This document shows, one piece after another, positions 23,152-31,875 of a stretch of DNA of 64,000 nucleotides; the first letter of the stretch is position 1, and each line of letters opens with the position of its first letter. A model generated the notes under the pieces. The model searched no databases, was not told the DNA's origin, and saw only the letters and a program-made list of their open reading frames with translations. The stretch comes from Emcibacteraceae bacterium (GTDB taxonomy: Bacteria; Pseudomonadota; Alphaproteobacteria; Sphingomonadales; Emcibacteraceae). The position numbers were made by a program, and so were the translations under genes. The DNA lies in NCBI GenBank assembly GCA_905612225.1, contig CAJQRG010000019.1, positions 1 through 64,000 on the forward strand. The letters are read 5' to 3'.

Positions 23152-23454
23152 ATGAAAAAAATTCCTGAAATTCCAATAAATATAACACAAGAACAGGTTG
23201 ATGCCGGACTTGATAAGTTTATAACCACAGTTGAAGAAGAAATTCAATCGCATCACACTCGCCCTGAATGGTTGAACTTAGATGAGCCGAGCCGCGAAGA
23301 ACAGAACCTTATAGTTCGCACCAATATCATTCTCGATATGCTCGAAGAATACATTCAGATACTCAAACTAGGTGATGATAATCCCTATTACCAACGCTTT
23401 GAAGTTGCTAAACTTTATTTTAAAAATATTAATATCCCCAATTTTAAAAAATAA
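23152..23454 (+). CDS. Small acidic hypothetical protein
   Basis: I do not recognise this 100-residue protein. It is soluble, with no signal peptide or membrane segment, and looks mostly helical (ITQEQVDAGLDKFITTVEEE, later TNIILDMLEEYIQILKL). No Shine-Dalgarno is visible before the ATG. It lies 90 bp upstream of the Tat-exported HD-domain gene on the same strand, so a shared transcript is possible. Confidence 0.6.
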   Translation: MKKIPEIPINITQEQVDAGLDKFITTVEEEIQSHHTRPEWLNLDEPSREEQNLIVRTNIILDMLEEYIQILKLGDDNPYYQRFEVAKLYFKNINIPNFKK

Positions 23455-23543
23455 GAGAATAGTAATAATATTTTAAACTTTGAATTTCTAAAATTTGACA
23501 ATTTACCCTCTTTTGTGTTCTTATGAGTATGGGGAGATTGATA

Positions 23544-24344
23544 ATGGACAGGCGTAAATTTTTAACATTCGTTGGTGGAGCAAGTGCTCTTGCAACCATG
23601 AACGCAAATCAAAAAGCTGATGCACTTGAAATGGCGATGGAGCAAGAACTTGAGAATGCAAATATTAACCATATTTCAAAATCTCCTTTCTGCAGAGCTT
23701 ACGGTGTAGATAATAATTGGGAAAGCGGCCCTCGCATAGCTGGACAACTCCGTCACATGGGCCATGAACCAAGACTACCGAGAATGTCAGCAAAACCTAC
23801 ACTACTTGAATTTTTTGATAAACGCATCGGTCACTCAAGTCATCTTTTACAGTCAGCCCGCCTGGCTAAACTGAATGGTTTGCCAGAAAAAATGATACTA
23901 GCCTGCTTGCTCCATGACATTTCTGTTACCGCTTACATTAACGTAGACCATGGCTATTATGGCGCTCAACTTGTTGCACCTTACGTTGAAGAAGAAATTT
24001 CATGGGCTATTAAATATCACCAATCCTTGCGCTTTATTCCAGACGAAGATGTCGACTATCCCTACCCCGAGGCATACATTCGTTACTTCGGTGAGGATTA
24101 TAAGCCTGAGCCCTATATTTTCAAAGACGGTGAATATGCTAGAAATCATAAATGGTATATGACAGCACGCCAAATTTGCATCAATGATGTTTATAGCTTT
24201 GATCCAAACATACAAGTGAGCCTTGATGACTTTCATGACATTATTGCTAGAAACTGGCGTGATCCAGAAGAGGGTCTTGGTTATGATGGAAGCCCGTCAG
24301 CTCATATGTGGCGCACGATGATCTTTCCTAATAACTTTTTATAA
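23544..24344 (+). CDS. Tat-exported HD-domain protein, resembling PhnZ/MIOX-type diiron oxygenases
   Basis: A 266-residue HD-superfamily protein with a twin-arginine signal: MDRRKFLTFVGGASALATMN. The start is the ATG with GGGGAG seven bases upstream. The HD core shows His100, His124-Asp125 in LLHDIS, His136 in DHGYYGAQLV, His159 in AIKYHQSLRFI and Asp215 in ICINDVY. This H...HD...H...H...D ligand set, and the phrase after the fourth His, resemble the mixed-valence diiron oxygenases (PhnZ, TmpB, inositol oxygenase) more than simple HD phosphohydrolases. Tat export carries folded, cofactor-loaded proteins, which fits a metal enzyme. Substrate unknown; no phn genes are nearby. The HD and Tat calls are firm, the oxygenase assignment is inference. 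Confidence 0.75.
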   Translation: MDRRKFLTFVGGASALATMNANQKADALEMAMEQELENANINHISKSPFCRAYGVDNNWESGPRIAGQLRHMGHEPRLPRMSAKPTLLEFFDKRIGHSSHLLQSARLAKLNGLPEKMILACLLHDISVTAYINVDHGYYGAQLVAPYVEEEISWAIKYHQSLRFIPDEDVDYPYPEAYIRYFGEDYKPEPYIFKDGEYARNHKWYMTARQICINDVYSFDPNIQVSLDDFHDIIARNWRDPEEGLGYDGSPSAHMWRTMIFPNNFL

Positions 24345-26908: not shown

Positions 26909-27514
26909 ATGACCTGGATTAATACTGTTTCATATCAAGAATCTGTCGGTAAATTAAGAAAACTTTATGATAGAGTTAAGGGCCCAAATAATAATGTAGA
27001 CAACATCATGATGTCGCATTCTCTTCGACCGCACACTATGGAAGCACATATGTCCATGTACAAGCGTGTTCTTCACCATACATCAAATGAAATACCTAAA
27101 GATTTTTTAGAATGCATAGGTATTTATGTTTCAATAATTAATAAATGTTTTTATTGTGTCGACCACCACTACGAGGGAATGTCACGATTAATTGGTGACG
27201 AAAATCGCGCATTAGAGATACGTGCCGCCCTGGAAATTCATTCTCCCAAAAAAGCATTTAATAGTAAACATGTTCTGATGCTTAATTACGCTCGTTCCCT
27301 CACCGAAAGCCCTTCTGAAATTACAAAACAACAGATAGAAAAAATGAAAGAAATGGGTATCAGTGACGGTGAAATACTAGAGGTTAATCAGGTGACTTCT
27401 TATTTTAACTACGCAAACCGAACCGTTCTTGGGCTTGGCGTTCATACAAAAGGTGATATTATAGGGCTTAGTCCTGGGAATTCGAACAATCCAGATGACT
27501 GGAACCACAATTAA
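26909..27514 (+). CDS. AhpD/carboxymuconolactone-decarboxylase-like (peroxidase-related) protein
   Basis: A 201-residue helical protein of the AhpD-like superfamily. The redox motif is C80-F-Y-C83 followed by His86/His87 in NKCFYCVDHHYEG, the CxxC-xx-H arrangement of alkylhydroperoxidase D-like and 'uncharacterised peroxidase-related' proteins. Other matching parts are NHSLRPHTMEAHM-like text near residue 35-50 and the late EVNQVTSYFNYANRTV. It likely acts in the cytoplasm as a thiol-based peroxidase or reductase; the physiological substrate is unknown. It stands alone between divergent exporters and a lipoprotein gene. Confidence 0.82.
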   Translation: MTWINTVSYQESVGKLRKLYDRVKGPNNNVDNIMMSHSLRPHTMEAHMSMYKRVLHHTSNEIPKDFLECIGIYVSIINKCFYCVDHHYEGMSRLIGDENRALEIRAALEIHSPKKAFNSKHVLMLNYARSLTESPSEITKQQIEKMKEMGISDGEILEVNQVTSYFNYANRTVLGLGVHTKGDIIGLSPGNSNNPDDWNHN

Positions 27515-29457: not shown

Positions 29458-31875
29458 ATGTTTCATAAAGTATTAGTTTCACTGGCAATCATTTTTTTCT
29501 TTACTGCTGCAACCTTCGCACAGGTAGAGCAAACAAAGGGTGACTTTATTGATAAGTTCCGTCAACTTGACGAAATTTTACCTACTGCCAATACCTACAG
29601 AACCGCTGGGGGTGAACCAGGGCATGAGTATTGGCAACAGCGAGCTGATTATTTAATTGATGTTACCCTTGATGAAGAAAATCAAAGAATTACCGGTGAT
29701 GTAGAAATTACCTATCATAACAATTCACCAGATAACTTACGCTTTTTATGGGTGCAGTTAGATCAAAATCGGTTTAACAAAAACTCCATGCAAAATAAAA
29801 CGTCTACATACGGATCTCCCTCAAACCTTAAGGGCTTTAATGGCGACCCCGCTCGTTTAAGCCTTGGTCAACTGCGCCAACAACAACTTATGGCTGACCG
29901 TGAATTTGGTTTTGAAATTAATAATGTTAAATCTAAAGATCGAGACCTTAAGTTTACAATAGTTGGCACAAAAATGCGTGTTGACTTGCCGAAAATACTG
30001 GCTTCGGGTTCTGCAGTAAAATTCTCCATTAACTACGCCTTTAATATTATAGAAAGTGATGTAATAGGTGGCCGGGGTGGCTTCGAACATTTTCCTGACG
30101 ACGAAATTGAAGGTGGTGGCTACATATATGAAATGTCACAGTGGTATCCACGTATGGGAGCTTATACCGATTATGAGGCGTGGACAGCAAAAGAGTTTCT
30201 CGGTTCTGGTGAGTTTACACAAGAATTCGGAAATTTTGACGTACGCCTAACGGTTCCTGATGATCATATAGTAGCTTCGACGGGTGTTCTTCAAAACATG
30301 TCTGATGTATTGACGTCTGAGCAAATTAACCGTTGGGAGCAAGCCAAGAGTGCTGAGAGCCCAGTCTATATCGTAACACCTGAAGAGGCCCTGGAAAATG
30401 AACAGTCAGGGACTTCAAATAAAAAAACTTGGCACTTCAAGGGAGAAGATGTCCGGGATTTTGCTTGGGCGGCCTCTCGTAAATTTGCCTGGGATGCAAA
30501 AGGCTATAACCAAGGTGGAACAGTTCGTCCATTTGTAATGGCCATGTCATTTTTTCCAAAAGAGGGCGGCGAACTTTGGGAAAAATATTCAACAGAAGTA
30601 GTTATACATACAATGGAGGTATATAGCCGTATTTCGTTCGACTATCCCTACCCCGTCGCAATTTCTGTAAACGGACCAGTTGGTGGCATGGAATACCCAA
30701 TGATTACTTTTAACGGACCCCGTACAATCCTCCATGATGACGGAACCCGTACCTACACAGCTGCCGAAAAAGAATTCTTAATTGGAGTAGTTATTCATGA
30801 AATTGGACATATGTACTTCCCCATGATTGTAAACTCTGACGAACGTCAATGGACATGGATGGATGAAGGGTTAAACAGCTACCTTGATAGTGTCGCGGGC
30901 CGGGAATGGGATTATGAAATGGGCTCAACCGAGCCATCAGATATAATTGAATATATGAAATCACAAAATCAAACACCTATCATGACACAATCTGATAGTG
31001 TGCTTCGTCTTGGCCCTAATGCTTATACTAAGCCTGCAGTATCACTTAATATCTTGCGCGAAACAATCCTTGGGCGTGATCTGTTTGATTTCGCATTTAA
31101 GGAATACTCACGCCGTTGGATGTTTAAACGCCCTACTCCTTCTGATTTCTTCCGTACTATGGAAGAAGCGTCTGGTGTAGACTTAGACTGGTTCTGGCGT
31201 GGTTGGTATTATACTACTGATCATGTGGATATTTCTCTCGACCACATATATGCCATGCGTATGGACACAAAAGATCCTGATATTGACTTTAATCGTCGCC
31301 GCGATGAAAATATCGCCAAGCCATCATCAGTGTTTAGCGCACGTAATAGGCAAGAAGGTACGATGTCATGGGTTGACCGTAATCCCGACGTACGTGACTT
31401 CCATGATGAAAATGATCAATTCACAGTAACCAATAAAGAACGAAATACATATTTTGATTTCCTTGAAGGTTTAGACGGTGTTGAAAAGGCCACCTTCACT
31501 CGCGCCGTTGAGGAAGACAAAAATTACTATGTGCTAGAGTTTTCTAATAAAGGTGGGCTTGTAATGCCGATCCTGCTTGAGCTTACCTTCACAGACGGAA
31601 CGAAAGAAAATTACAATATACCTGCTGAAATTTGGCGCCGCAGTTATAATTCTGTTAAAAAACTGCTCGTCCTTGATAAAGAACTTGCTCAAGTTGTGAT
31701 TGATCCACGCTGGGAGACGGCTGATGTTGATATTGAAAATAACCATTATCCACGCCGCATCATTCCATCACGCATCGAAGCCTTTAAAAGCCTTCCACGC
31801 ACTGGCCTTAAACGCCGTGATATAATGCATGACATAAAAACCGAACTCAAAACCCAAGAAGATGATGATAATTAA
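29458..31875 (+). CDS. Secreted M1 family metallopeptidase
   Basis: An 805-residue zinc metallopeptidase of the M1 clan, different from the PepN-like one at 15 kb. A signal peptide covers residues 1-21 (ending TFAQ). The exopeptidase box is GGMEYPMITFNGP (from about 409). Zinc ligands are His447 and His451 in HEIGH and Glu470 in WMDEGLNSYLD. The C-terminal part continues past the helical domain with a beta-rich region (about 670-770), as in the large bacterial group of M1 enzymes found in Bacteroidetes and marine Proteobacteria. AAGGGG precedes the ATG. The stop overlaps the start of the next gene by one base, so the pair is translationally coupled. It is probably an aminopeptidase in the periplasm or outside the cell. 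Confidence 0.9.
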   Translation: MFHKVLVSLAIIFFFTAATFAQVEQTKGDFIDKFRQLDEILPTANTYRTAGGEPGHEYWQQRADYLIDVTLDEENQRITGDVEITYHNNSPDNLRFLWVQLDQNRFNKNSMQNKTSTYGSPSNLKGFNGDPARLSLGQLRQQQLMADREFGFEINNVKSKDRDLKFTIVGTKMRVDLPKILASGSAVKFSINYAFNIIESDVIGGRGGFEHFPDDEIEGGGYIYEMSQWYPRMGAYTDYEAWTAKEFLGSGEFTQEFGNFDVRLTVPDDHIVASTGVLQNMSDVLTSEQINRWEQAKSAESPVYIVTPEEALENEQSGTSNKKTWHFKGEDVRDFAWAASRKFAWDAKGYNQGGTVRPFVMAMSFFPKEGGELWEKYSTEVVIHTMEVYSRISFDYPYPVAISVNGPVGGMEYPMITFNGPRTILHDDGTRTYTAAEKEFLIGVVIHEIGHMYFPMIVNSDERQWTWMDEGLNSYLDSVAGREWDYEMGSTEPSDIIEYMKSQNQTPIMTQSDSVLRLGPNAYTKPAVSLNILRETILGRDLFDFAFKEYSRRWMFKRPTPSDFFRTMEEASGVDLDWFWRGWYYTTDHVDISLDHIYAMRMDTKDPDIDFNRRRDENIAKPSSVFSARNRQEGTMSWVDRNPDVRDFHDENDQFTVTNKERNTYFDFLEGLDGVEKATFTRAVEEDKNYYVLEFSNKGGLVMPILLELTFTDGTKENYNIPAEIWRRSYNSVKKLLVLDKELAQVVIDPRWETADVDIENNHYPRRIIPSRIEAFKSLPRTGLKRRDIMHDIKTELKTQEDDDN

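Follow-up and report, generated by a model that had tools for sequence, protein, structure and literature searches.

A Tat-tagged HD-domain protein of an Emcibacteraceae bacterium and its kinship to the PhnZ-type oxygenases

Among the genes of the 64,000-nucleotide stretch of Emcibacteraceae DNA analysed here (the window) is one that specifies an HD-domain protein with a twin-arginine N-terminus and a set of residues resembling the metal ligands of the HD oxygenases. The questions raised by this locus are whether the protein is an oxygenase or a hydrolase, whether it leaves the cytoplasm, and on what kind of compound it would act. From its sequence and those of its relatives we read it as belonging to an uncharacterised lineage of HD diiron oxygenases of the PhnZ type, exported by Tat in part of its members and involved in the catabolism of anionic, probably aromatic-derived compounds, and would put the probability of this reading at roughly 0.6. 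The features discussed are collected in Table 1.

The window protein begins MDRRKFL. Its start is supported by the GGGGAG seven nucleotides upstream and by the homology of its relatives, which starts at MDRR; for the latter reason a longer frame from 23523 is less likely. The ORF translates as the first-pass annotation had claimed, and the numbering given there for the ligands (H100, H124, D125, H136, H159 and D215) is exact. Pfam finds a weak HD domain in the protein (21.2 bits versus a cut-off of 22). A genome scan provided 50 related loci, and wider searches reached the order to which a Woeseia genome belongs and one Acidobacteriota genome. The six residues are kept throughout the first 50 relatives, with the exception of one contig-edge fragment which lacks the first His, and are invariant in all 53 members of a broader alignment (40–88% identity), as are D135, R163, H202, R209, D248, H254, W256 and R257. 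Unlike D215, its nearest alternative, D220, varies in this alignment. The observation of a Tat-tagged HD protein with a predicted set of six ligands is in this respect confirmed as real.

Table 1. Features of the HD gene and its surroundings (window positions)
Feature	Position	Strand	Basis or remark
Ribosome-binding site GGGGAG, 7 nt upstream of the ATG at 23544	23531..23536	+	Sequence
HD-domain protein, PhnZ/TmpB-like, twin-arginine N-terminus, 266 aa	23544..24344	+	ORF, profile and fold searches
Predicted Tat signal peptide, residues 1–27: MDRRKFL, uncharged stretch 6–23, K24, A25-D26-A27 possible cleavage motif	23544..23624	+	Pattern in 32 Tat-bearing members
His100, predicted metal ligand 1	23841..23843	+	Invariant; aligned to PhnZ H34
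His124-Asp125, HD motif, predicted metal ligands	23913..23918	+	Invariant; aligned to PhnZ H58-D59
His136, predicted metal ligand	23949..23951	+	Invariant; aligned to PhnZ RHE histidine
His159, predicted metal ligand	24018..24020	+	Invariant; hhalign
Asp215, predicted last metal ligand	24186..24188	+	Invariant; aligned via intermediate HD family
CMD/AhpD-type 'peroxidase-related' protein	26909..27514	+	2.6 kb from HD gene

The three best NCBIfam matches of the window protein are the three families of phosphonate HD oxygenases, all of them far below cut-off: TIGR03276 (25.9 bits versus 214.6), NF049941 (22.5 versus 300) and NF052439 (17.6 versus 300). A Phn-HD oxygenase was the top NCBIfam match, again far below cut-off, in 43 of 43 and then in 52 of 53 members. 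The 25.9-bit match is not specific on its own, as its score is exceeded by many of the class's other short HD proteins; these constitute an intermediate HD family which was later employed for transitive alignment. A search of the PDB sequences places TmpB and PhnZ first. When aligned by hhalign with the homologues of PhnZ (2-amino-1-hydroxyethylphosphonate oxygenase; PDB 4MLM, 4N6W, 4N71; TIGR03276) the probability is 97.5, with H100, H124-D125, H136 and H159 falling on the PhnZ histidines and aspartate, and with Arg163, four residues after His159, near the position of the lysine of PhnZ HVxAKRYL. D215 is aligned to the Asp of KWDQ in the intermediate family, and that residue to the Asp of PhnZ RRWD, such that all six ligands align with PhnZ, five of them directly and D215 through the intermediate. 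The control profile of HD_3/YfbR phosphohydrolases gave an hhalign probability of only 11.6.

The intermediate proteins (loci L125–L139, about 200 aa) belong to a widespread, unnamed HD family of alphaproteobacterial genomes with the motifs H-KWY and (K/R)(Y/W)DQxSFDP, as in KYDQxSFDP. Theirs is the closest profile to that of the window family, with hhalign probabilities of 99.3–99.4 and E values of 5e-20 to 1e-21 over the whole domain, the best pairing 99.4 with 1e-21. Both families possess the H-KWY segment and the D-x-x-SFDP motif; the intermediate one is shorter and, in the sequences read, carries no Tat tag. At the sequence level it bridges PhnZ and the window family, and it is probably another dimetal HD lineage.

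Two AlphaFold2 models (pLDDT 82.7 and 85.0) were submitted to Foldseek. With both, PhnZ and TmpB were the only PDB entries with E values below 0.001 (E 4e-5, probability 1.00) and made up the top ten matches, each with a probability of 1.00; the TM-scores are moderate, at 0.52–0.63 depending on the target. YqeK, PgpH and HD-GYP proteins gave no significant Foldseek match, nor did MIOX (E 2.3 and 0.75 for the two models), and PF05153 (MIOX) is absent among the Pfam matches of the protein. Of the three kin originally proposed, PhnZ and TmpB are thus upheld by profile HMM, profile-profile alignment and fold search, whereas the MIOX-like reading was dropped since its fold match is not significant. 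The same three methods favour PhnZ/TmpB over the plain HD phosphohydrolases, which, as had been maintained, are not the closest relatives.

TmpB ((R)-1-hydroxy-2-trimethylaminoethylphosphonate oxygenase, PDB 6NPA) is the best or near-best match to the window protein in both fold and sequence. The two share the H..HD..H..H..D order of ligands and the 24-residue spacing from the first His to the HD motif, at about 20% identity. Unlike TmpB, the window family lacks the YxxE loop and has the Tat tag and two invariant segments peculiar to it, HKWYM and HMWR; its HD-to-His loop is shorter, and no phosphonate or 2OG-oxygenase partner is nearby. A gapless alignment puts F90 and K93 of the window protein, which differs from PhnZ also in its export signal, at the YxxE positions (Y24/E27 in PhnZ, Y30/E33 in TmpB), and across the 53-member family these are occupied by F/Y and K/L/Y/H, respectively. 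Lacking the loop, a score at the family cut-offs and the phosphonate context, the protein is not a PhnZ or a TmpB. Absence of the Glu, which contacts the amino group of the substrate, would fit a substrate devoid of that group.

The H..HD..H..H..D set had been taken as the mark of an oxygenase. It does not serve as one: an identical diiron set of six ligands is found in the Ap4A hydrolase YqeK (PMC8177086), and the ligands by themselves therefore cannot decide between oxygenase and hydrolase. A dimetal or diiron hydrolase of the YqeK/HD type, nearest to PhnZ by chance and acting, in the periplasm or cytoplasm, on a phosphorylated substrate or another ester, would also accord with HD proteins being mostly hydrolases and with the many invariant cationic residues, which could bind phosphate. 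We consider this unlikely. In HD phosphohydrolases an Arg stands at position −3 from the first metal His (PMC8177086), and it is absent from the window family, position 97 being P/S/H/D/G; YqeK is matched by Foldseek at E 1.5–2.7 versus 4e-5 for TmpB, and the HD_3 profile at the low probability given above; and the neighbouring genes of the relatives are those of oxidative catabolism, not of nucleotide metabolism.

The HD fold also hosts the lyase/hydratase Ddi2 (PMC8177086), and the missing YxxE loop controls access of O2 in PhnZ and TmpB. A diiron relative of PhnZ that has acquired a chemistry other than oxygenation, as a lyase, hydratase or decarboxylase of an aromatic acid pathway, might be at home among the decarboxylase-like amidohydrolase and UbiD-like genes which the related cluster includes. 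We give this little credence: all six oxygenase ligands are kept, whereas the last Asp is replaced in Ddi2, and MIOX, which has the same order of ligands as the window family, is likewise without YxxE, yet is an oxygenase (PMC8177086). An oxygenase is favoured because every one of the nearest relatives is an oxygenase, the Arg of the hydrolases is missing and the gene neighbourhoods are oxidative, and the protein looks built to work like its PhnZ-type relatives.

The Tat signal claimed for the window protein bears up in comparison, the RRxF being followed by an uncharged h-region and being conserved while the h-regions diverge. A twin-arginine N-terminus (MDRR or similar) is present on every complete copy in the genus of the window and on 32 of the 53 members of the broad alignment. 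In these 32 R3, R4 and F6 are invariant, residues 8–23 vary while staying mostly hydrophobic or (nearly) uncharged, and position 24 is basic in all but one, after which A25-x-A27 is conserved. Basic c-region residues are a known means by which Tat signals avoid the Sec pathway. The NCBIfam model TAT_signal_seq (TIGR01409) matches four to six relatives and not the window protein, so that the call for this copy comes from the motif and from the pattern seen in the comparison. TatC is found in 12 of 12 other genomes of the genus, and was not found in the window's own assembly, which is 54% complete.

Tat-tagged homologues had been suggested as a test. They occur in several lineages (Alphaproteobacteria, many gammaproteobacterial members and Acidobacteriota) without being universal, many homologues being cytoplasmic-looking and devoid of an RRxF signal; both exported and cytoplasmic forms would therefore exist. 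The ADALE stretch which follows the signal is also present in homologues without the RR segment, which thus looks added to, or lost from, a conserved protein. In the tree the copies of the genus fall into one clade (its three untagged rows are incomplete) with other Tat members outside it; the signal has consequently been gained or lost more than once, or is old. The ADALE segment of untagged homologues, the many members missed by the Tat HMM, the FAA hydrolase and molybdenum partners without RR signals (see below) and AlphaFold2 pLDDT values of 70–90 for residues 1–40 would all suit a cytoplasmic protein in which the RR segment is a structural N-terminal extension rather than a working Tat signal. 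This strikes us as quite improbable, given that R3-R4-F6 is retained in front of a divergent yet hydrophobic or uncharged stretch with a basic residue before A-x-A, that such N-termini recur in three lineages, that the genus possesses TatC, and that gammaproteobacterial neighbours are themselves Tat-tagged.

In the window the HD gene lies outside any catabolic cluster. On its 3' side are a homoserine dehydrogenase and two LysE exporters on the opposite strand, and the CMD protein of Table 1 is 56–62% identical to a gammaproteobacterial CMD located about 2.1 kb from the HD gene there. Since a CMD homologue is near both HD genes the window locus is tied to the gammaproteobacterial module described below, and the CMD protein is a probable functional partner of the HD protein. 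Just upstream of the HD gene is a 100-aa ORF (23152–23454), conserved in L003 and L078 and elsewhere in L006, for which no family scored above cut-off. An 805-aa ORF (29458–31875) which by length resembles a molybdenum hydroxylase is an M1-type peptidase. No gentisate cluster could be demonstrated in the window's own genome, in whose 54%-complete assembly a single HD copy was found. The statement that phosphonate genes are lacking nearby holds for all genes scanned or read near the window gene and at the related loci. Leaving aside a PhyH-like gene 4 kb from the paralogue in L014, there was likewise no PhnY/TmpA-type 2OG oxygenase among them. A phosphonate role for the window gene was not adopted, no phosphonate genes having been seen.

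The first-pass annotation saw no clue to the substrate; the related loci do provide one, pointing to aromatic or carboxylate catabolism. Twelve of 13 genomes of the genus carry one to seven HD copies, some in tandem. One paralogue group, represented in about ten genomes, has an amidohydrolase on one side (88–1204 bp, opposite strand) and an MFS transporter on the other (6–19 bp, same strand). It resides in a gentisate island comprising a gentisate 1,2-dioxygenase (537.6 bits versus a cut-off of 442.1), a maleylacetoacetate-type isomerase, an FAA hydrolase, an HpaB-like monooxygenase, a 3-hydroxybenzoate 6-hydroxylase-like flavoenzyme, RraA-type aldolases, an Fe-dependent alcohol dehydrogenase and a molybdenum hydroxylase subunit. 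In Gammaproteobacteria the HD gene is preceded by an FAA hydrolase gene and followed by that of the molybdenum subunit; the three share a strand, lie only tens of bp apart and form what appears to be an operon. It is adjoined by a Tat-tagged class V aminotransferase (8/8), a Tat-tagged FAD oxidoreductase (5/5), CMD, BKACE and a secreted-type amidohydrolase. The FAA hydrolases (56–63% identity) and molybdenum subunits (56–59%) are so similar between the gammaproteobacterial operon and the alphaproteobacterial island that the association of the three genes spans the classes. Neither partner has an RR-type export signal, so that the pathway would not necessarily be wholly periplasmic.

A more specific version of our reading is put forward tentatively: a periplasmic lineage of mixed-valent diiron HD oxygenases, Tat-exported in metal-loaded form and self-sufficient in electrons, cleaving C–C bonds in hydroxylated acids that are cyclic or derived from aromatics, and served downstream by a molybdenum hydroxylase and an FAA hydrolase of their own. 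We infer the identity of the metal, the O2 chemistry, the export and the class of substrate, and the events would be as follows. The protein would fold and load two metals, presumably irons, in the cytoplasm, be exported by Tat and have its signal cleaved near A25-D-A27. In the periplasm the mixed-valent site would be held by the six ligands, and an anionic substrate bound by invariant Arg and His residues such as R94, R163, H202, R209 and R257. With the substrate held through Fe1 and the cationic pocket, O2 would bind at Fe2 and a hydrogen atom be abstracted; kinship to MIOX, PhnZ and TmpB suggests that the C–C (or C–X) bond next to a hydroxyl would then be cleaved with O2, with no external reductant, the site returning to Fe(II)/Fe(III). 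The product of MIOX cleavage is an aldehydo-acid (glucuronate). A molybdenum enzyme of the aldehyde-oxidase type and an FAA hydrolase would logically come next after such a product, which may enter a catabolic route including these and CMD-type proteins: in the genus of the window a gentisate-type aromatic route, and in Gammaproteobacteria the compact operon beside its Tat-tagged enzymes.

NAD(P)H-dependent reductases are cytoplasmic, and an HD oxygenase, which can do without one, would for this reason suit the periplasm. The cofactor of HD oxygenases is self-regenerated and no reductase is needed (PMC8177086). PhnZ and TmpB, iron enzymes that break C–P bonds with O2, are cytoplasmic. HD oxygenases are a small group: MIOX, PhnZ and TmpB are the only ones listed in a 2020 review, which mentions neither the periplasm nor Tat (PMC8177086), and NCBIfam adds hydroxymethylphosphonate dioxygenase. 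In the open-access literature, subscription papers being outside the scope of the search, we found no Tat-exported or gentisate-linked HD oxygenase; the same literature and plasmid searches disclosed no characterised homologue. What is new here is the gene context of the family. A conserved, Tat-tagged relative of PhnZ in a fixed catabolic neighbourhood is a testable candidate for extracytoplasmic diiron oxygenation, and the family is probably one more lineage of HD oxygenases, its substrates belonging to a class different from the phosphonates. Should the periplasmic version be correct, HD oxygenase chemistry would be extended to a new compartment as well as a new class of substrate.

Several observations on the related loci deserve mention. 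Two or three Tat-HD paralogues stand in tandem in L094 (10081–12675) and L024 (5163–6789); together with numbers of up to seven copies per genome, this suggests diversification of substrates within the genus. Other paralogues adjoin genes which from their sequence are for TRAP/TAXI-type transporters (L022, 6819–7805; L014, 6566–9734), a further hint of carboxylate substrates. The molybdenum subunit is a stand-alone molybdopterin-binding protein of the xanthine dehydrogenase family (800–805 aa; L181, 9221–11638; L092, 4536–6938), accompanying the HD gene in two bacterial classes with no FeS or FAD subunits seen adjoining; having no export signal of its own it could be cytoplasmic or a Tat hitchhiker. 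The class V aminotransferases, about 0.8 kb from the HD gene (L181, 6400–7653; L186, 6667–7899), have clear Tat signals (ARRDFLK). Few PLP enzymes of this fold are exported by Tat, PvdN being one example. Lastly, members of the family are also found in metagenome-assembled genome records titled Bordetella parapertussis (L030, L034 and L050), which are probably mislabelled environmental bins.
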